This document shows, one piece after another, positions 1,138-19,184 of a stretch of DNA of 37,561 nucleotides (position 1 is its first letter; every line of letters begins with the position of its first letter). A program made the translations under genes and the position numbers. The notes below the pieces were generated by a model that saw nothing but the letters and a program-made list of their open reading frames with translations, was not told the origin of the DNA and ran no database searches. The DNA is taken from NCBI RefSeq assembly GCF_024448985.1, contig NZ_JAMOII010000028.1, positions 1 to 37,561 on the forward strand, read 5' to 3'. This DNA comes from Stutzerimonas stutzeri (GTDB lineage Bacteria; Pseudomonadota; Gammaproteobacteria; Pseudomonadales; Pseudomonadaceae).

Positions 1138-3978
1138 TCAGCTTACCGGCTCTACCTTTGCAGTTTCCGCAACAGGGCGTTCAGTCTTTGTTTGCTCCCG
1201 TCGCTTGATGAATTTCCAATCCGCTTCATCGATGTAAATCCCGCTCGGGCCGCTTCCTCCCTCCAGGTCGATGGCTACATGTGCTGAGACCTGTGGCTTG
1301 ACCGAAGCCAGGATCGGCACGAAGCCCAACTGCAGACTGGTTTCGATCAGTGCGTGTTGATTACGTTCATCAATATCGGCCGCCTCGTCCAGGTAGTAGG
1401 GAAGACGGATGCGGCCTGCCTGTTCCCGGTCAATCAGGTGCAGCAACAGATACATGTTGGTCAGTGCCTTGATGGTCATGGTCGTACCGTTGGAAGCAGC
1501 GCCGTCGATGTCTGTATGGATCACAGGCTGGCCGCCCACCTTGGTAATTTCGAACGCGAGTTCGAACAGGTCTTTCAGGCCCAGCTGATTATTGTTGGCG
1601 GCAACCAGGCGCGCGAGGTATTCCTTGGCCTCTTCGTTCTTGCTGTCTTGCTCGCTGCTCTGCTGTAGATCGAATACCGATAGCGTCTCGCCTTGCTCGT
1701 ATTGCCCGGCGCTGTGGATGATCTGGTCGATATGCTTGAGCGCATCCTTGTTCGGTGCCAGGACGATGCGAAAGCTTTCGAGGTTCGAAACCTGGCGCTT
1801 GTTGATCTCGCGGTTGAACAACGCCAGCTGATGCTCAAGGCTGTCGTAGTCGCTGCGAATGTTGCGCAGGGTCCGGGCGATATCGGTGACTGCCGCCCTG
1901 CGTGCCTTGGCCAGCGTCAGGGCTTCGTCCTGGCGATGCGCATAGGCGTTCACCAGTAGCTGCAGACGACGCTCGGGATCTTCTTCGCTATCGAACTTGG
2001 CGACGCCCTTGAGGCGAACCTGTGCATACAGCGCTTCGATTTGACCGTCGACGCGCTGCAGCGCCTGCCAGCTATCCTGATAGTCGTTGAGCAGCGGTTG
2101 GAGATTTTCCAGGGAGTCGTCCACCGGGTCCATGAACGGCGTGCCGAACGGTAGATCTGCCGGAAGCAGCTGACGGCGACGTAGTGCGTCTTCTAGTGTG
2201 CGCTCTTTGGCCTCGAGATCAGCCAGCTGGCGGCCGACCAGCTGCAGTTTCGCCGAGAGGTGTTGCACCCGCTCGGTAAACGCGTCGCTGGTCCGCTTGA
2301 GTTCGTCTTGCGCCGCTTCGGCCTGGGCCAACTGCTCGAGCTTGCTGTCCTCCTCGGATGAGAGCGTCTGGCAACGACGGAAGTCCTCTAGCGCTTTCTG
2401 GGCGTCCAATACCTGCTGATAAAGCTGCTCGGCCTGCGCCTTGCTCGCCGCGCGATCGACCGCCACCGAATGCTGAGCTTTGAGTTGTTTCAGCTCGCGC
2501 TCCAGTCTATCTCTCTGGTCACGCAGCGCGGCTCGATCGGTCAGCGCTTGCAGTGCGGGCGGCTCAATGTGCGAAAGGTCGATGGACAGCCCGGGCGCCT
2601 CGAAGCGTTCTCCCTTGAAGCCATCGAGCACCGCTTCAAGCGATTTGACCCAAATACCCCCGTCGTCTACGGCAATGCCTTTTTCACCCAATGGCAGACT
2701 GAACAGCTGGCCGTTGAAAAGCCTCATCAGGCGATCAACGTCAGGCTGCGAAAATTCCTCACGTAGACGGGAATAGCTGTTGTTGTCCGCATGGTCTAAT
2801 TGCTGCCGGACCGACTTGAGTCGCTTTTCCAAGTCGCGTAGGCGCTCGTCGAGGTCCTCGCTTGAGAACTGGCGCGACTGTGATAGCGCGCCAGCCAACT
2901 CGTCATGGGCGTCCTTGGCTGCGAGCAACTGCTGCTCGAGCACATGAGCATCGTCGACTAGTGCAAAGCGGTTCTTCAACGCAGACAGTTCGCCCAGCCA
3001 GCGTTGAATTTCGCTGATATCACGCTCCAGACGCATCAGTTCCGCAGTGCCGCCACGCTGTTCGTTCTGCAGACCGTCCTGCTCGCGGCGATAGTGTTCG
3101 GCCTGGATCACCAGCTCTTCCTTGCGTGCGCCTGCATAGTCCTGCCAGGTGCCGAGCAGTGAATCGAGCAAGGGGGAAAGGCGGTGCAGCTTGCCGCGCA
3201 GAAATTCACGCTGCGCTACGCCAGCGGCCAGGGCTTCGACCAGCGGGCCGGCAGCGACAAGCGCTTGGTAATCATGCTCCATGCGGCGGACGTCGCGGAA
3301 GGCTTCTTCGGTGGCGGCAATATAGTCGACGCTGCCGGAACGCAGGCTGTGCTCAAACGCATCGAGGAACAGCTGCTTGAGCTTGGCAGCGGTGATCTCG
3401 CGCATGTGCAGAAGATTGATGAACAGAGCGCGGAAGGTCTTGAGGCTCTGCTCGCTGGTCGAGCGCAACGGGATTAGCGTCATGTCCAGCGGAATTGCAG
3501 TATGGCCACCCACCAGCAGACGGCGAAGCTCATCCGGCTTGGCCTCATATGCCTTGATGCCGGCGCGCTCCAAGTTGGCGAACAATTCACGTTGACGCAG
3601 GCAGGTGCCGTTCTGCTGGTAGTGATCGAGGTCCAACGAGCCCTGATAGACGAAGAACTGGTGCCCGAAACCGCCGCCCGGTCCCCGCCCGGCAACGCCG
3701 ATCACGTGCGGCCCATGGGGCAGGGCGACCTCGACGAGGATGTAGCTGGTATCGCTGGCAAAGTAGAACTTGCGCGACTGTTCCAGGCTGTACTTGCCGA
3801 AGCTCATGTCCGACATGCGTGCCAGGATCGGGAACTGTAGCGCGTTGATCGAGGCCGACTTGCCCAGGTTGTTGGCGCCGTAGACTGACAGCGGGTTTTC
3901 CAGTGGGAAGATGCCGAGGCTATAGCCGGCGGTGTTCAGCAGGGCGAAGCGGCGAATACCGTAGCGTTCCTGGCTCAT
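1138..3978 (-). CDS. mksB: MksB, SMC-like ATPase of the MksBEF condensin
   Basis: The 946-residue protein is the DNA-organising ATPase of the MksBEF (MukBEF-like) condensin, related to JetC of Wadjet systems. The N-terminus carries a Walker A variant GANNLGKS at residues 34-41. A long charged coiled-coil region fills most of residues 200-780. Near the C-terminus are a signature-like SNGTTMT (about 829-835) and a Walker B ending in LDEAAD (D864, E865), so both halves of the ATPase head are present. ATG overlaps the mksE stop by four bases (ATGA), which suggests translational coupling in an mksF-mksE-mksB operon. The length fits MksB rather than the larger MukB (about 1,480 residues). The role in chromosome organisation or plasmid restriction is known for the family, not shown here. 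Confidence 0.9.
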   Translation of the reverse strand: MSQERYGIRRFALLNTAGYSLGIFPLENPLSVYGANNLGKSASINALQFPILARMSDMSFGKYSLEQSRKFYFASDTSYILVEVALPHGPHVIGVAGRGPGGGFGHQFFVYQGSLDLDHYQQNGTCLRQRELFANLERAGIKAYEAKPDELRRLLVGGHTAIPLDMTLIPLRSTSEQSLKTFRALFINLLHMREITAAKLKQLFLDAFEHSLRSGSVDYIAATEEAFRDVRRMEHDYQALVAAGPLVEALAAGVAQREFLRGKLHRLSPLLDSLLGTWQDYAGARKEELVIQAEHYRREQDGLQNEQRGGTAELMRLERDISEIQRWLGELSALKNRFALVDDAHVLEQQLLAAKDAHDELAGALSQSRQFSSEDLDERLRDLEKRLKSVRQQLDHADNNSYSRLREEFSQPDVDRLMRLFNGQLFSLPLGEKGIAVDDGGIWVKSLEAVLDGFKGERFEAPGLSIDLSHIEPPALQALTDRAALRDQRDRLERELKQLKAQHSVAVDRAASKAQAEQLYQQVLDAQKALEDFRRCQTLSSEEDSKLEQLAQAEAAQDELKRTSDAFTERVQHLSAKLQLVGRQLADLEAKERTLEDALRRRQLLPADLPFGTPFMDPVDDSLENLQPLLNDYQDSWQALQRVDGQIEALYAQVRLKGVAKFDSEEDPERRLQLLVNAYAHRQDEALTLAKARRAAVTDIARTLRNIRSDYDSLEHQLALFNREINKRQVSNLESFRIVLAPNKDALKHIDQIIHSAGQYEQGETLSVFDLQQSSEQDSKNEEAKEYLARLVAANNNQLGLKDLFELAFEITKVGGQPVIHTDIDGAASNGTTMTIKALTNMYLLLHLIDREQAGRIRLPYYLDEAADIDERNQHALIETSLQLGFVPILASVKPQVSAHVAIDLEGGSGPSGIYIDEADWKFIKRREQTKTERPVAETAKVEPVS

Positions 3979-4661
3979 GCTCCAAGCTCCTTTTCTTCGG
4001 CAATGGCCCGCGCTAGGGCATCTTCTTCGCTTTCGTCCGGTTCGCGGTCGAGGAGGATGATCTCGTCCTCTTCTTCTTCGGCGATCAGTTCTGGAGCGGG
4101 TAAGGGCAGGTCGCTGCTGTGCAGGTTCGCCGCCAGGTCACGGTCCTGCTGTACTGACAGGCAGACGTCAAGGAAGCGGTGCATGGGCGGCAGAAAGCGG
4201 TAAATGCCATTGCTGTCTTCGGCGAAACCCAGCTGTGTCAGGCGCCGAATGATTTTTTCCTCCAGCTCGTCCTGAGTCGTCACCTCGGCCTGCAGGAACA
4301 GGTCACGGTACTTGTCCAGCAGCGCAGGCAGTTCGTCACGGCCCAGGCTGCCGCCGTCGAGTACCGCGAGCGGGTCGCGGCCTTGATCGGCGAGATGCTC
4401 GACCAGAATGAAGGTGAACAACGCCAGGCGTTGGGCGGTCTTGTTGACCTGCGCACCCATCTGCTCGGGGACGAAGTAGTAAAAGCCGCGCGGATCGCAG
4501 ACGAGTTCGAAGCCGAGCGCCTTGAACAGCGCGCGGTAGTGGTCCTGCATGTTGGACAGCTGGGCGTAGCATTCCGGCTCGCTGCGGGACAGGTGATACC
4601 CCTTGAACAGCTCGCGGAAGATTGGTGCCAGCTGGGTCATTTCTTTCAGATCGATGTTCAT
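3975..4661 (-). CDS. mksE: MksE, condensin accessory subunit
   Basis: MksE binds the kleisin MksF and helps control the MksB ATPase. I place the start at the ATG at 4661, giving 228 residues beginning MNIDLKEMTQLAP. The frame stays open upstream to a TTG at 4736, but those 25 residues look non-native and have no better ribosome site. The visible body is helix-rich, with a winged-helix-like middle (HLADQGRDPLAVLDGG) and a very acidic tail rich in Glu and Asp before the stop. Identification rests on position between mksF and mksB, size and general character; the family is poorly conserved in sequence. It ends inside the mksB start codon (ATGA overlap). Confidence 0.85.
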   Translation of the reverse strand: MNIDLKEMTQLAPIFRELFKGYHLSRSEPECYAQLSNMQDHYRALFKALGFELVCDPRGFYYFVPEQMGAQVNKTAQRLALFTFILVEHLADQGRDPLAVLDGGSLGRDELPALLDKYRDLFLQAEVTTQDELEEKIIRRLTQLGFAEDSNGIYRFLPPMHRFLDVCLSVQQDRDLAANLHSSDLPLPAPELIAEEEEDEIILLDREPDESEEDALARAIAEEKELGA

Positions 4662-4759
4662 AGGCAACTCAGGGCAATCGGCGGGTGAAAACCGCGAAGC
4701 GCTTTTCACAAAATGGGTTCGAGACAGGGCGCGCAATACCCGGTCCAGCTCGCAAGCGC

Positions 4760-6001
4760 TCAGGCATCGGCGTTGGCCAGCAGCGCAAAGGAGCTAAGGC
4801 TGACCTGATGCTCACGGGTCAGATACTCACGCCGCTCTAAGCGGTCGCGCTGAAAGCGCGGATCGCGGGACAGCCGTGAAAACCAGTAGAGCAGCTCGTC
4901 AGTCGCGCCCTCCGGCTCCTGTTCCAATAGCCACTGCATCAGGTCAGGCAGCGGCAGCGCCTGTTCACAGCGATCGAGCATTTCACGCGCCGTCAGCGGC
5001 GAGCGCGGTGCGTCGGTCTTGCGCTTGCTGCCGGCTCGGGGAAATTGCGCCGGCTTCGGTTCGAAACGGGCCAAGGCGTAGACGTAGGCTTCGACCTGGC
5101 TGGCCGTGCCGAGAAAGGTGCTCTGCGGCCGGGTGAACAGTGGCAGCGAGGCCTGAGGCACCGCATCCAATCCTTTCTTGCGGATCGCTGATAAGGCCAG
5201 CGCGGCGCCGCGTGTAACCGCATTGTGCCGGCGTGCCTCCTCGCGCAGCGGCAGCAATAGTTCACGGGCATGACGCAGGGTCAGCTGGGCAGTGCTCTGC
5301 ATTTCGAGGATGCGCGCATGGGTGCGTAACAGCAGGTCGTCGTCGACCAGTTGGCCGAGTCGCTGCTGCTCGCCGAGCAGCTTCATCAGTACCTGCACGA
5401 CGCGGTAGACGCCTTGTTCGAACGCGCCGTCTGCCGCGACTAGCTGAATCATCGGCTCGACGTACTCGTCCCAGGTGGCCAGTACTTCGGCGTAACGTTG
5501 ACGCAGCGGAATCTGCCGATCGCTGGTCTTGGCCCGGTCAGCCACACCGATCAGCGCCTGCTCGTCGTTGGCGAGCTTTTTCAGCACGTCGCGCACGCGC
5601 ATGTCGAGCAGGCGCAGCTGACGCGCAAGGTCTTGGCCGTCGCGGATCTCGAAGGCGTCCTGGATGTGTCCTGCTAGACGCTCCAGATGGCGCAAGTAGG
5701 CTTCGATCTCCAAGCACAGGCCGAGCCGATGCTCGCGGCGCAAATACGCCAGGAAGTCATGGATCTGCGCGTTGAGCTCGAAGCGATTCGGGCTTTTCGC
5801 CACCGGGACCAGTATGTCCAGCCGGATCCACTGATCGAGCAGGGCGGTGATATCGGTGGGCGTGCCTTCCGGCAGTTGTGCGGCGAGCTGATGACGAAGT
5901 TCGACCAGGCTCAGGGTGCCGGCATCGAAGCGCTCGCACAGCGGCTCTAGCAACGTCCAGTGTTCGGCAAGGGCTCGCAGTACGCGCTTGGGTTCGATCA
6001 T
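4760..6001 (-). CDS. mksF: MksF, kleisin subunit of the MksBEF condensin
   Basis: MksF is the kleisin that bridges the two MksB heads and recruits MksE. I choose the ATG at 6001 (413 residues, beginning MIEPKRVLRALAEHW). A GTG at 6133 would add 44 residues but would run into the leuA control region and has no good ribosome site. The N-terminal part resembles a winged helix (LRALAEHWTLLEPLCERFD), the centre is a long helical region rich in Arg and Glu, and the C-terminus is a basic segment (LSRDPRFQRDRLERREYLT) typical of JetA/MksF-like kleisins. It is first in the mksF-mksE-mksB operon and divergent from leuA; the 187-bp gap between them should hold both promoters. Confidence 0.85.
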   Translation of the reverse strand: MIEPKRVLRALAEHWTLLEPLCERFDAGTLSLVELRHQLAAQLPEGTPTDITALLDQWIRLDILVPVAKSPNRFELNAQIHDFLAYLRREHRLGLCLEIEAYLRHLERLAGHIQDAFEIRDGQDLARQLRLLDMRVRDVLKKLANDEQALIGVADRAKTSDRQIPLRQRYAEVLATWDEYVEPMIQLVAADGAFEQGVYRVVQVLMKLLGEQQRLGQLVDDDLLLRTHARILEMQSTAQLTLRHARELLLPLREEARRHNAVTRGAALALSAIRKKGLDAVPQASLPLFTRPQSTFLGTASQVEAYVYALARFEPKPAQFPRAGSKRKTDAPRSPLTAREMLDRCEQALPLPDLMQWLLEQEPEGATDELLYWFSRLSRDPRFQRDRLERREYLTREHQVSLSSFALLANADA

Positions 6002-6188
6002 CTGAATCGGTTCTGTCAGCTGCAAAATAGTCGGCAATTGTACTGCCTGGCCCCGGTGCAAATCAGCCCAAACCGATCGTTGGATTCGTGCAATGAGGTG
6101 CTCGGCCTTCCCGCGTTGTGGGTTTCCGGCCACAATTCACACTTGAGGCGCCACCTGAGTCCGCACGGCTGGCCAAGAGGAGTTCGAT

Positions 6189-14749: not shown

Positions 14750-14954
14750 TTAAGGCACCGTGAACGGCAGACCGTTGAGTAAGAACTTCGTCGCAACCAT
14801 CCAGACCACCGCACTTATCAACCCCAACGACAGATGCCCAACAACGATCCCTATAGCGATCTGTTTCCAGAGCCCGGCGTATTGTTGGGCGACGTAGCGG
14901 CGGCGCGGTAGGGCGTCTCGCGTTCGGCGCGGATGTTGTCGAAGCAACTCTCAT
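14750..14954 (-). pseudogene. Frameshifted copy of the small membrane protein gene at 18803-19030
   Basis: This minus-strand stretch matches the gene at 18803-19030 along most of its length, including the start ATG (14954) and the core WKQIAIGIVVGHLSLGL plus AVVWMVA. Compared with that copy it has lost one base just after the start (GACGAC became GTTGC) and another near 14887, so the beginning reads out of frame. The C-terminus also differs and ends at 14750. It is a decayed paralogue and part of the 251-bp direct repeat. Confidence 0.75.
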
Positions 14955-15047
14955 GGCGGGTACTCGATGCTGTTTGGCTAAACGGCAGGCACAAAAAAAG
15001 GGTTCAGCTTTCGCTGAACCCTTTCTTGAATATGTTGGCTACGCAGG
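14797..15047. repeat. Direct repeat, left copy (decayed)
   Basis: This block aligns base for base with 18871-19122: the small membrane protein core, the same TTCAGC-hairpin terminator and the last bases of tRNA-Met (GGCTACGCAGG at 15037-15047). Lengths are 251 and 252 bp and the orientation is the same. The similarity stops abruptly inside the tRNA. The left copy is the worse preserved. The two copies bracket about 3.8 kb of accessory genes. Confidence 0.8.
14997..15025 (-). terminator. Hairpin terminator, duplicated copy
   Basis: AAAGGGTTCAGC (14997-15008) pairs perfectly with GCTGAACCCTTT (15013-15024) around TTTC. An A-run to the left becomes a T-tract on the minus strand. It matches the terminator downstream of the intact tRNA-Met (19072-19102). 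Confidence 0.85.
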
Positions 15048-15220
15048 CATATGAACTCGCATGCTTAAGCCTTGAGTTACCGGGGTTCTACATTGAAAGC
15101 TAGTTAGGCCTACAGGAAGGCATACGCCGTGCCGGTTGCTACTGCGTTCTGGTCGTCGGGCCGGGCCTGTTCTGCTGCTAATTCTTCCTGATAGTATCCA
15201 TCGCCTCATCACCCCATCGC

Positions 15221-15438
15221 AAGGAAGCAACCGTGGCTACCTCGTCCTCACTCGTAAGGAAAGCGAGCACATTACTCTCCGTGTACAGCCTGGCACCGAT
15301 GCCAATGATCTCCTCGCACAGCTGCTGCTGGATGGGATCACGATCCGCGTTGGGCAGATGGGTGGCGGGCAGGTAAAGATTGGCATTGAAGCGCCGATAG
15401 ATCTTCAGATACTGCGGGGCGAGCTTGAAGAGGCATAG
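15221..15438 (+). pseudogene. RsmN/CsrA-like RNA-binding regulator, start out of frame
   Basis: The frame reads GYLVLTRKESEHITLR..., then a helical insert (ANDLLAQLLLDG), then GGGQVKIGIEAPIDLQILRGEL. This is the CsrA fold with the extra helix seen in P. aeruginosa RsmN/RsmF (MGFLILSRREGEGITL... IEAPRGVLIVRDEL). CsrA proteins bind GGA motifs in mRNA leaders. A good ribosome site (AAGGAAG, 15221-15227) precedes a GTG at 15233, but GTG is followed by GCTAC instead of GGCTAC. One G is missing, so start and body are in different frames. The only in-frame start upstream is a TTG at 15136 with unrelated residues. It is either a recent pseudogene, a sequencing error, or uses an unusual start. Confidence 0.7.
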
Positions 15439-15536
15439 AAACCATCGTGTCGGCCCGAGATAAAGGTAGGGATGCGCTGTTGTATGAACTGCGCAGAGGT
15501 TCCAACGGCGCCTGCAGGCAAGCCTTACAATATTAT

Positions 15537-15546
15537 CCTAGGATGC
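15537..15546. promoter_or_regulatory. Palindrome ATCCTAGGAT before the HipA-like gene
   Basis: A perfect 10-bp palindrome lies 21 bp upstream of the kinase start, next to AT-rich TTACAATATTAT that could serve as a -10 region. The half-site recurs loosely downstream (TAGGAC, GGATCC). It could be the operator of an autoregulated kinase/DUF3037 operon; no matching HTH protein is visible in the operon itself. Confidence 0.35.
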
Positions 15547-15566
15547 GAATGCATTAGGACGGATCC

Positions 15567-16394
15567 ATGACCAAAGACGCAACATCTGGCGATAGTCTTT
15601 CATCACGCTCTGGCAGCGCGCAGGCGCTTCCGATCGAGGCTAGGTATCAGAAAACTCTGATACCCATCGAGGCCATCACGACTTTCAACAGCAACATGGG
15701 AAGTGCTGACCTAAAACAGATCGTTGAGGCCCGCGATGGAAAGCACTACGCAGTCAAGACCACGCGGGACGGTGCGGGCAAAGTGCCTGCGTCGGAATTC
15801 TTCTGTTATGAGCTTGCCTGCCGAGTGGTTATTCCAACCCCGGCGTTCGCGATCATCTCTATGCCACAAGGCGACTTGGCCTTCGGCTCTTTGTGGGAAG
15901 GCGGGGTTGTCAATGGCAATAAAAGGGTCGACTACCAAGCTTTCGTTATGGCTGTGCTCCAGGGAAAGACTAAGGTACCTAATCTCAAAGCATTTTTAAG
16001 CCGACTCTACGCGTTCGACTTGTTTGTTAATAACGTAGATCGCCATTGGGGGAACTACCTGTGGCGGTCCAGCTTTGGTGATTCTTTTATAGCTCTTGCA
16101 TTCGATTTTAGCAGGGCGTGTTTCGAAGTCGGCCACCTGGGGTTTGAGGCAGTGCACCCGGCATCCAATACGCAAATCGCTTTCAGGATGATAAACCTGA
16201 CCAAAAATTACATAAGAGCCGAGGCTTTGGGATGTCTTGAGGCCATTGAAGCCATAGATTCTAACGAAATAGCGACAATTCTTGAAAACTTCCCTGCCAG
16301 CTGGATGTCCAAAGCCGACCGTAAAGCGTACATTGACTGGTGGGATTCTCAAGCGCGGCTGGACAGAATCAGCTCTTTGAAGAATACAATTTAG
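15567..16394 (+). CDS. HipA-like Ser/Thr kinase-fold protein
   Basis: The 275-residue protein has the HipA/PI-kinase-like catalytic pattern: ATP-lysine in KHYAVKTT (K64), catalytic loop NVDRHWGN with D158 and N163, and metal-binding D180 in ALAFDFSRA. All three key positions are kept, so it is probably active. It lacks the N-terminal domain of classical HipA (about 440 residues) and matches the shorter HipA-like families. HipA kinases phosphorylate glutamyl-tRNA synthetase or other targets and cause dormancy; the target here is unknown. No HipB-type HTH antitoxin is adjacent. The next gene, a DUF3037 protein, starts 10 bp later behind AGGAGG, so the pair is an operon. AGGAC precedes the ATG. 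The region is more AT-rich than the core genes, a sign of transfer. Confidence 0.8.
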   Translation: MTKDATSGDSLSSRSGSAQALPIEARYQKTLIPIEAITTFNSNMGSADLKQIVEARDGKHYAVKTTRDGAGKVPASEFFCYELACRVVIPTPAFAIISMPQGDLAFGSLWEGGVVNGNKRVDYQAFVMAVLQGKTKVPNLKAFLSRLYAFDLFVNNVDRHWGNYLWRSSFGDSFIALAFDFSRACFEVGHLGFEAVHPASNTQIAFRMINLTKNYIRAEALGCLEAIEAIDSNEIATILENFPASWMSKADRKAYIDWWDSQARLDRISSLKNTI

Positions 16395-16404
16395 GAGGTA
16401 ATAA

Positions 16405-17235
16405 ATGATTACCTTTGAATATTCGATTATTAAATACATGCCTGACCCAAAGCGTGGCGAGATAGTAAATGTTGGGTTAGTAGTATTTAATGCCGGAAGG
16501 GCCGATGTCAGGGTTCTTAATGCCTCTGCCAAGGTCCGCATAATCGATGGGACTACCAGGATTGAAGATCTTGAGTCGTTAAAGGAAGGGATCACTTCAG
16601 TCGCAGCATTGGCGGATAATCCCAAACAAGCAATAGAATTGTTAAAATCGTTCCACGCATCTAGCTCTTTTCTGAGCGAGCCTTCGTGCTTTGTTTTAGA
16701 CGACATCAACCAATATGAAAAGAGAGTGTCAGCTCTTTTTAACGAACTAGTAAAGCCATATAGCTCGAAAGAAAAAGTCATAAAAAGCTCTAGAATTCAC
16801 ACTTATGTGAAAAATATATTTCAAGGCATGGAAATATTAGGAAAGGATGTAGATGATCTTAGCAGGCATAAGGTTATTTACAATTATCCGCTTAATGAAA
16901 ACTCTGGATTTTCCGCAGACTTCTTGTTAAAGAACGGGAAATTCCATATGACCGAAGCCATTGATTTTAATTTAAATGACCCGAGCGCTAAATTCAAAGA
17001 AACAACCATGAAAGTAATGACTTTCATGGAGGGGCGTAAATTCCTCGGCGATGACTCGGCTCGTTACTTCGTTTATTTTGCGAGCGCAGCGAAGGAAAAA
17101 GAAGTCATACCGCATATAAATCTTGCAGAAGAGTATAGTGACAAGATATTTAACTTAGAATCTAAGGAAGAACACACCGAATACTTCGGATTGATGTCAT
17201 CACTTGTTGGTCGCGATCTATTAAGGGTTCATTAA
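16405..17235 (+). CDS. DUF3037 domain protein, partner of the HipA-like kinase
   Basis: The 276-residue protein starts with the DUF3037 signature FEYSIIKYMPDPKRGE followed by IVNVGLVVFN (residues 4-29). A charged helical middle (about 60-150) and a C-terminal domain with FSADFLLKNGKFHMTEAIDFN follow. No catalytic motif, signal or membrane segment is seen. A strong AGGAGG is 5 bases before the ATG. It directly follows the HipA-like kinase and is followed by a terminator, so the two form a complete two-gene unit. Codon use is clearly AT-rich compared with flanking core genes. The function of DUF3037 is unknown to me; it could be antitoxin, substrate or effector of the kinase. Confidence 0.8.
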   Translation: MITFEYSIIKYMPDPKRGEIVNVGLVVFNAGRADVRVLNASAKVRIIDGTTRIEDLESLKEGITSVAALADNPKQAIELLKSFHASSSFLSEPSCFVLDDINQYEKRVSALFNELVKPYSSKEKVIKSSRIHTYVKNIFQGMEILGKDVDDLSRHKVIYNYPLNENSGFSADFLLKNGKFHMTEAIDFNLNDPSAKFKETTMKVMTFMEGRKFLGDDSARYFVYFASAAKEKEVIPHINLAEEYSDKIFNLESKEEHTEYFGLMSSLVGRDLLRVH

Positions 17236-17254
17236 GTCGTTGCAGGCGACGCCT

Positions 17255-17281
17255 AAGCCCCCGCACTTGGCGGGGCTTTTG
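17255..17281 (+). terminator. Terminator of the kinase/DUF3037 operon
   Basis: AAGCCCCCGC pairs with GCGGGGCTT (one extra C on the left arm) around ACTTG and runs into TTTT. It lies 19 bp after the DUF3037 stop. Confidence 0.85.
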
Positions 17282-17408: not shown

Positions 17409-17900
17409 CTATGGGAGAAGATATGCGGAACCCGCCAAGTAAACTTTGATACTTATTCGGGCCCGCTTTACGAGTGAAGTGTCGAATCCAAATGCCATGC
17501 ATGGTCGCGTCTGAAGTGACGTTCTGGCGTAGCAGCCGAGAACTCCATGAGCCATGCAATAGCCCACCTGGAAGCTATCGCCGCGTCTATTGAGGATAGG
17601 CGACCCGTAACGCTCCACCTCATCGCTATGTAGATTTAGCAGATCGATTTCCAAAGGGATCGACACTAGCCGCCCATTCAGGTCTATGAACCCAAAATCG
17701 ACAACACGAATAGGGTGGTCACTTTTACTAACCACATTCATCATCGTTTCTGGGATGGCCTCGGGCGACAATGTTCCGAGAGAAACTAATATTTCATCCC
17801 GGACTCCTCGGAGCTGAATTATAAGTGCCCACACACCAGAGACGGCTGCAACGACCGCGCCGATGAGCGTCACCCACTTGGTCCAAATATCTACGTCCAT
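17409..17900 (-). CDS. Membrane-anchored hypothetical protein
   Basis: The 163-residue protein has one N-terminal hydrophobic helix (TLIGAVVAAVSGVWALIIQL, about residues 11-30). A soluble domain follows with SDHPIRVVDFGFIDLNGRLV and QTRPCMAFGFDTSLVKRARI. I do not recognise a named family, but the pattern of a single anchor followed by a SDHPIR-type beta domain resembles small accessory-region proteins I have seen without function. It starts 5 bp after the stop of the 162-residue gene upstream, so the two are an operon. It is convergent with the kinase/DUF3037 unit. Confidence 0.7.
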   Translation of the reverse strand: MDVDIWTKWVTLIGAVVAAVSGVWALIIQLRGVRDEILVSLGTLSPEAIPETMMNVVSKSDHPIRVVDFGFIDLNGRLVSIPLEIDLLNLHSDEVERYGSPILNRRGDSFQVGYCMAHGVLGCYARTSLQTRPCMAFGFDTSLVKRARISIKVYLAGSAYLLP

Positions 17901-17905
17901 GCGGG

Positions 17906-18394
17906 TTAACTGGCAGTAAGCTGCAGGTCAGTGTAGTACTCCAAGTAAGATTTCGGCTGCCTCGTTATAAATGGCGCCGACAGCACTGTGTTGTCTGACT
18001 GGATGTAGTCATCGACATACACGGCCAAGACTTCTTGGGACCGTAAAAATACACCGGCGAAGATGAACTCATATCTCCCTATTTTTCGAATGACGCCGAT
18101 CATGTGATCGAAAGCTGGATCAAGATGACGATTTTTCTTTTGGTGACACTGCTGTGCCATTCGTCGTGCTTCTGTGATTCGCGAGCTTCTGATGGTTGGT
18201 AGTTCGATCGGCTGAATGGTAGGAGGCGCTTCTTCGATCTCCTGCGAATAGCGCAGCCTATACCGGTTTTTGAGAACGATTAGAGGTAAACCATAGGCGT
18301 CAGATGCGCCAGAGAGCGCTTCATCTGCCGTCATGCCGTTTCTGCGATCCAGTCGCAGCAGTTCGACTGCCTCCGCGATATTTTTTTCGTCCAT
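17906..18394 (-). CDS. Hypothetical protein with helical N-terminus
   Basis: The 162-residue protein is not one I recognise. The first 50 residues are helical and look like a compact HTH or UBA-like fold (MDEKNIAEAVELLRLDRRNG, then TADEALSGASDAYGLP). The second half is beta-rich and hydrophobic (YEFIFAGVFLRSQEVLAVYVDDY) without a membrane helix. AAGGTG lies about 7 bases before the ATG at 18394. It is first of a two-gene minus-strand operon with the membrane-anchored protein, inside the repeat-flanked accessory region. Confidence 0.65.
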   Translation of the reverse strand: MDEKNIAEAVELLRLDRRNGMTADEALSGASDAYGLPLIVLKNRYRLRYSQEIEEAPPTIQPIELPTIRSSRITEARRMAQQCHQKKNRHLDPAFDHMIGVIRKIGRYEFIFAGVFLRSQEVLAVYVDDYIQSDNTVLSAPFITRQPKSYLEYYTDLQLTAS

Positions 18395-18802: not shown

Positions 18803-19030
18803 TCACCCCGGCTGCTGGCCAGCCCACGGCATCACAATCTGCAAATCCCCAACAGGCAGTTGCGCCGCTACCATCCAGACCACCGCACCAATCAACCCCA
18901 ACGACAGATGCCCAACCACGATGCCGATGGCGATCTGTTTCCAGAGGCCGGCATGCTGGTTGGCTTGGGTAGCGGCGGTGCGATAGGGCGTTTCGCGCTC
19001 GGCGCGGATGTTGTCGAAGTCGTCTCTCAT
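18803..19030 (-). CDS. Small membrane protein downstream of tRNA-Met
   Basis: The 75-residue protein begins MRDDFDNIRAERETPYRTAA and has one membrane helix (IAIGIVVGHLSLGLIGAVVW). The soluble N-terminus is charged. Function is unknown. It follows tRNA-Met and its terminator on the same strand. A frameshifted relative lies at 14750-14954 within the direct repeat; this copy is intact over the shared part, though its last about 18 residues differ from the other copy and may be rearranged. Confidence 0.65.
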   Translation of the reverse strand: MRDDFDNIRAERETPYRTAATQANQHAGLWKQIAIGIVVGHLSLGLIGAVVWMVAAQLPVGDLQIVMPWAGQQPG

Positions 19031-19122
19031 GGTGCGCTCTCGGTGATGCTGGGCTAAACGGCGGGCACAAAAAAAGGGTTCAGCTTTCGCTGAACCCTTT
19101 TTGAATTTGGTGGCTACGCAGG
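18871..19122. repeat. Direct repeat, right copy
   Basis: This is the counterpart of 14797-15047. It holds the intact small membrane protein core, the hairpin terminator and the 3' tip of tRNA-Met. Within this copy the tRNA is complete. The arrangement resembles a tRNA-linked insertion site, with accessory DNA between the copies, though no integrase gene remains. Confidence 0.8.
19072..19102 (-). terminator. Terminator downstream of tRNA-Met
   Basis: AAAAGGGTTCAGC pairs with GCTGAACCCTTTT around TTTC and ends in a T-tract on the minus strand (A-run at 19068-19075). It lies 6 bp beyond the tRNA 3' end. Confidence 0.9.
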
Positions 19123-19184
19123 GACTTGAACCCCGGACCCCAGCATTATGAATGCTATGCTCTAACCAACTGAGCTACGTAGCC
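19108..19184 (-). tRNA. tRNA-Met (CAT), elongator type
   Basis: The 77-nt cloverleaf starts GGCTACGTAGCTCAG and ends CGTAGCC plus A and encoded CCA. The acceptor stem GGCTACG/CGTAGCC is perfect, the anticodon loop is TTCATAA with CAT, and the T-arm has GGTTCAAGTCC. A first base pair G-C and the close match to E. coli metT indicate the elongator rather than the initiator tRNA. Its 3' tip is duplicated at 15037-15047. Confidence 0.95.

Follow-up and report, generated by a model that had tools for sequence, protein, structure and literature searches.

A HipA-like kinase and DUF3037 gene pair in a tRNA-Met insert of Stutzerimonas stutzeri is a likely HipAD (PDC-M66) anti-phage module

Introduction

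What might a HipA-like protein kinase do when its neighbor is a DUF3037 gene and no HipB antitoxin gene adjoins it? A gene pair on contig NZ_JAMOII010000028.1 of Stutzerimonas stutzeri (assembly GCF_024448985.1) raises this question. We analyzed positions 1 to 37,561 of the forward strand, referred to here as the window. An initial annotation, made from the DNA letters, had described the pair as an uncharacterised two-gene module and proposed a toxin-antitoxin or anti-phage unit without a DNA-binding antitoxin. We consider it likely that the pair is HipAD (PDC-M66), a kinase-antitoxin module directed against phages. The label ‘uncharacterised’ did not hold, as the pair corresponds to PDC-M66 in PADLOC and to DS-6 or HipAD in print.

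Results and discussion

The gene pair has published relatives

The two genes lie on the plus strand and are separated by 10 bp, as had been read from the sequence. An AGGAGGT motif upstream of the DUF3037 gene overlaps the kinase stop codon. The kinase matches Pfam HipA_2 with 34.5 bits (cut-off 27) and represents the single HipA_2 match of the source genome, and the partner matches Pfam DUF3037 (PF11236) with 40.2 bits (cut-off 22.6). In PADLOC, for which no curated cut-off is shown, the partner matches PDC-M66B (1.1e-12) and the kinase gives weak matches to PDC-M03A (2.6e-5) and PDC-M66A (0.0015). Residues 52-272 of the kinase match phrog_3162 (1.9e-26) and residues 3-261 of the partner match phrog_5137 (2.3e-32), both PHROGs families without known function. 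NCBIfam contained no match for either protein. As expected of HipAD/PDC-M66, the HipA-like kinase gene here is immediately followed by one for DUF3037, and both run in one direction.

Two members of this family are reported to protect against phages. In the Retron-Sda1 operon the HipA-like/DUF3037 pair, identified as PDC-M66, is described as defending against Bas51 without a helix-turn-helix (HTH) protein, non-coding RNA or active reverse transcriptase; the kinase is needed for defence and deletion of DUF3037 is toxic (PMC12548924). DS-6, renamed HipAD, is described as a phage defence system consisting of a kinase and a DUF3037-DUF1829 protein, in which defence is lost once a key kinase residue, predicted to be catalytic, is altered. 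AlphaFold3 gave a contact within DS-6 with an interface predicted TM score (ipTM) of 0.76-0.79 and a contact of DS-6B with DNA with an ipTM of 0.67 (PMC13092281, with Brenes and Laub 2025 as its reference for HipAD).

The S. stutzeri pair resembles DS-6 in combining a HipA-related kinase with a DUF3037 protein and no HipB. It differs in its location in a chromosomal tRNA-Met insert and in the DUF1829 domain described for DS-6B, which hmmscan (E ≤ 1) detected neither here nor in any of 30 DUF3037 partners, although the paper's own detection method may differ. The Retron-Sda1 pair comprises the same two families, with a partner described as DUF3037 only, but the kinase studied here matches PDC-M66A weakly and has no retron beside it. 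Between 14500 and 19300 a tRNA was the sole Rfam match at the gathering threshold, with no retron RNA scoring as high, and no reverse transcriptase was present among the five flanking open reading frames (ORFs) scanned. A retron link of the pair was therefore rejected.

Toxicity, phage defence and the need for the kinase are published for relatives of the pair; what we show for this copy is which genes and residues it has, how the genes are paired, where they lie and which folds are predicted. By analogy, DUF3037 is the probable antitoxin, one of the roles that the initial annotation had proposed and one that the reported toxicity of the Sda1 deletion supports. Since defence and toxicity of other members are in print, the proposal of a toxin-antitoxin or anti-phage unit was right in kind but not new: adjacency, a HipA-type kinase and the published phenotypes speak for it, while its novelty is lost. 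A defence system whose validation elsewhere is still recent had been recovered independently by reading raw sequence.

Kinase and DUF3037 genes are consistently paired

Conserved adjacency in other genomes had been suggested as a check of the initial proposal, and it was confirmed in two collections. DUF3037 scored over cut-off in 11 of 321 genomes of the class, each time with HipA_2 directly upstream on the same strand. HipA_2 matches of any strength occurred in 19 of these genomes; 13 were over cut-off, and 11 of those were accompanied by DUF3037. The two that were not are G174, in which a 284-aa ORF without an A3 profile match overlaps the kinase end, and G155. The six genomes with sub-threshold HipA_2 had no DUF3037 match. 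At any strength DUF3037 was matched in 12 genomes, including a sub-threshold match in G261, which has no HipA_2 match. In IMG/VR the DUF3037 search yielded 30 loci with the kinase upstream in 29 (28 by tblastn, L069 by profile) and the kinase search yielded 36 loci, all with DUF3037 sequence downstream (for L097 a broken fragment, detected by profile alone). As some contigs turned up in both searches and many of the loci are almost identical to each other, the two counts lack independence.

The gap between the genes ranged from -17 to +11 bp in all 28 pairs compared, with a 4-bp overlap in 13. Across these 28 pairs the distance matrices of kinase and DUF3037 protein correlated at 0.96, as would be expected for jointly inherited genes. 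Few genomes of the genus encode the DUF3037 protein: it was found in 2 of 56, with the kinase alongside in both. A scan of genome contigs identified one relative, a plasmid search with the DUF3037 protein identified three records, all below 60% identity, and tblastn with this protein against 50,697 phage records found nothing at 1e-5. One viral locus (L066, 2227-4780) carries a transposase, IS3-type by eye, at the kinase position next to a mostly open DUF3037 frame, which fits loss of a toxin with survival of its antitoxin.

The kinase retains its catalytic residues and has no HipB gene beside it

The catalytic positions K64, D158, N163 and D180 had been noted as intact, and we found all four, as well as E77, to be invariant across 29 of 29 aligned kinases. 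The predicted fold of the kinase is common to CtkA, HipT and HipA. When solved structures were searched by sequence, the single proteins matched none and profiles gave weak matches only. CtkA of Helicobacter pylori is about 16% identical to the kinase over the aligned part, and we know of no link between CtkA and DUF3037.

HipBA of E. coli and Shewanella shares kinase fold and catalytic residues with the pair but differs in several respects. The kinase comprises 275 aa compared to the roughly 400-440 residues of HipA chains, and its HipA_C match (20.6 bits) is below the Pfam cut-off of 30.5. A Pfam scan of the five flanking ORFs revealed a CsrA-like protein, an ABM monooxygenase, a glyoxalase and two proteins without a match at E ≤ 1. 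None of the five encodes a HipB-like or other HTH protein, in line with the initial annotation, and none encodes HipS. The pair is thereby also distinct from HipBST and HipT(Lp)-HipS(Lp), its partner being DUF3037.

The partner carries a predicted restriction-endonuclease-like domain

For the C-terminal part of the partner (residues 125-273) an alpha-beta-beta-beta-alpha-beta core of the PD-(D/E)XK, or restriction-endonuclease-like, fold is predicted. The residue positions of this motif were assigned from secondary structure. Among 30 partners, all carry D or E at position 172 and 29 carry E at position 184, but the catalytic set is incomplete, as every one of them has I or L in place of the lysine at position 186. 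K203 is kept in 26 of 30 partners and could, on the predicted structure, be a moved catalytic lysine. DNA binding is a probable, though speculative, activity of this predicted domain, in which the customary lysine of the catalytic set is replaced. The earlier phrase ‘without a DNA-binding antitoxin’ is therefore correct with respect to HipB but doubtful in view of this predicted domain and of the DNA contact reported for DS-6B (PMC13092281).

We speculate that the lysine-less domain of the HipAD antitoxin might be a sensor of phage DNA, whose binding releases or switches on the HipA kinase. We regard this idea as tentative and rather unlikely to be correct in this form. If true, a DNA-recognition fold would become the trigger of kinase-based abortive infection. 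The domain offers a concrete and testable idea of how HipAD might sense phages. In a module of a known kind, this predicted fold represents the main fresh lead.

How the module might act, and alternative explanations

If the pair is HipAD, both proteins would be made from one translationally coupled transcript, and DUF3037 would form a complex with the HipA-like kinase and keep it inactive, consistent with the toxicity reported upon DUF3037 deletion (PMC12548924). Phage infection would relieve this hold. The freed kinase would then act on the host by phosphorylation, possibly of a translation factor like HipA does, whereupon growth would stop and the infection would abort. The restriction-endonuclease-like domain may bind DNA in this process, speculatively as a sensor of phage DNA or for autoregulation.

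The neighborhood of the relatives suggests a further role. We tabulated 30 loci (29 viral contigs and one Pseudomonas maioricensis) and scanned the upstream ORF in 20. For 19 of the 30 loci this ORF, which has the orientation of the pair, encodes a Peptidase_S24 domain that is usually combined with an HTH in the manner of CI-type repressors; as the viral collection was searched on purpose, this count shows that prophage copies are common there and not that they are the majority of all copies. The twentieth ORF (L078) encodes a CI-like HTH, and L058 and L060 carry an extra short ORF between S24 repressor and pair. A near-identical copy of L085 was found in 24 of 5426 E. coli genomes, and L060 as a second query gave matches in 2 of 5426. 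One of the 24 genomes with the L085 copy displays the lambda-like order XRE regulator, kinase-position ORF, DUF3037, cell division inhibitor (kil-like), gam, bet and lambda exonuclease, and on a Klebsiella plasmid carrying phage genes the pair follows an S24 gene. The rexAB genes of lambda, which encode different proteins, sit after cI, the same position as the pair in many prophage relatives. The pair might thus be an accessory of lysogeny that is expressed with CI and excludes superinfecting phages like RexAB, without being a classical toxin-antitoxin system. We hold this to be rather unlikely, although it is compatible with the HipAD assignment. No repressor adjoins the copy studied here, and the toxicity of DUF3037 deletion in Retron-Sda1 (PMC12548924) fits a toxin-antitoxin system.

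The many relatives in viral contigs, though from a collection searched on purpose, and the position of this copy between tRNA-Met repeats would also suit a plain addiction module that stabilizes a prophage or island and has no specific anti-phage role. The transposase in place of the kinase in L066 is as expected if only the toxin can be lost. Protection against phages by two published members, abolished in one of them by a change of a key residue predicted to be catalytic (PMC13092281), argues against this explanation and renders it improbable. Finally, the HipA-type kinase, the AlphaFold3 contact of DS-6B with DNA (PMC13092281) and the predicted fold of the DUF3037 protein could point to a persistence module of the HipBA kind, with DUF3037 taking over from HipB both as antitoxin and as operator-binding repressor. 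We deem this very improbable, since the upstream palindromes were not found in nine relatives and the many prophage copies behind CI may need no operator of their own.

Flanking signals and base composition

The initial annotation had pointed to a palindrome in front of the pair and to a terminator of its own (Table 1). Two perfect 10-bp palindromes are indeed present, but at least one such palindrome occurred in 210 of 2000 shuffles and neither was found in nine relatives, and we rejected a function as operator. No inverted repeat with arms of at least 6 was found in 15421-15600. The terminator hairpin (17259-17275) is clean, with 6 G-C pairs, and plausible, but a terminator scan of the region gave 5 sites compared to 4.5 expected from shuffles and is not above chance. 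A promoter scan gave 2 sites compared to 4.3 expected, none of them in front of the kinase.

Both genes are AT-rich relative to their surroundings, and the codon use noted earlier was borne out. G+C content (GC) and G+C content at third codon positions (GC3) are 0.504 and 0.572 for the kinase gene and 0.392 and 0.412 for the DUF3037 gene, which has the lowest GC of the genes compared. Six other genes of the window range from 0.587 to 0.642 in GC and from 0.699 to 0.843 in GC3. The remaining three ORFs of the insert are intermediate (GC 0.493-0.564, GC3 0.534-0.600).

Table 1. Positions of the gene pair and of surrounding features in the window.
Feature	Position	Strand	Remarks
HipA_2-type protein kinase, predicted toxin/effector	15567..16394	+	275 aa ORF
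DUF3037 protein, predicted antitoxin/sensor	16405..17235	+	276 aa; Pfam PF11236, PADLOC PDC-M66B, phrog_5137
Predicted C-terminal restriction-endonuclease-like domain of DUF3037 protein	16777..17223	+	residues about 125-273
10-bp palindrome GCCTGCAGGC upstream of kinase	15510..15519		function doubtful, absent from nine relatives
10-bp palindrome ATCCTAGGAT upstream of kinase	15535..15544		function doubtful, absent from nine relatives
Candidate intrinsic terminator after the pair	17259..17281	+	6 G-C pairs, loop 5, then CTTTTGT
Left repeat of insert	14789..15056		85% copy of 18863-19131, with decayed tRNA-Met 3' end
Right repeat of insert	18863..19131		small ORF, hairpin, 3' end of tRNA-Met
tRNA-Met(cat), presumed integration site	19108..19184	-	ARAGORN; Rfam tRNA 19111-19184

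The pair lies in an insert at a variable tRNA-Met site

The left and right repeats lie about 4075 bp apart. Because these 85% copies flank the region, it constitutes a 4-kb insert, whose contents are the pair, the CsrA-like ORF and two ORFs on the minus strand. No phage genes were encountered next to the pair. The CsrA-family ORF (15136-15438, Pfam 7.2e-12) lies just upstream of the kinase and is perhaps a mobile CsrA paralogue. The adjacent minus-strand ORFs at 17409-17900 (163 aa) and 17906-18394 (162 aa) have no Pfam or PADLOC match and are possible further cargo. The site is a variable hotspot in the genus. In G013 it is empty, the two query matches being 7 bp apart, and the stretch L118 corresponds to the empty site. 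Other related genomes carry cargo of about 1.6 to 16.5 kb, and several contain two or three divergent copies of the repeat with its tRNA 3' end, hairpin and small ORF.

Defence-island neighbors had been suggested as a further check, and in some related genomes the tRNA-Met site does hold defence genes. Strong defence matches were obtained in 5 of 15 fetched stretches, a share that is biased upwards as the proteins (ten, from seven of the 15) were picked by eye from the ORF list; a second scan covered eight of these ten and, in addition, the integrase and Zot protein encoded in L114. The matches were PD-Lambda-1 (1.1e-141) and Ppl (1.8e-41) in L115, GmrSD/HEC-06 in L117 (1.1e-221) and L123 (3.7e-83), a SIR2 protein matching ThsA (1.3e-13) in L114 and a type II methyltransferase (5.5e-100) in L124. 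The match obtained for L116 was weak, and the proteins of L113 matched nothing. The cargo of L119-L122 and L125-L127, some of it metabolic-looking by eye, was left out of the scan.

Phage integrase and Zot protein in L114 (783-4376) are signs of a filamentous prophage at the tRNA-Met, and L124 (1314-4983) contains ORFs at the same tRNA-Met that appear filamentous-phage-like by eye. The hotspot of G041 (L113, 664-6462) holds minus-strand ORFs of 1348 and 414 aa without Pfam or PADLOC match, a candidate novel system. Elsewhere in the window, a three-gene operon on the minus strand (1138-6133) looks condensin-like by eye (MukB/MukE/MukF type) and matches LmuB (4.4e-5) and JetB (5e-4) weakly.
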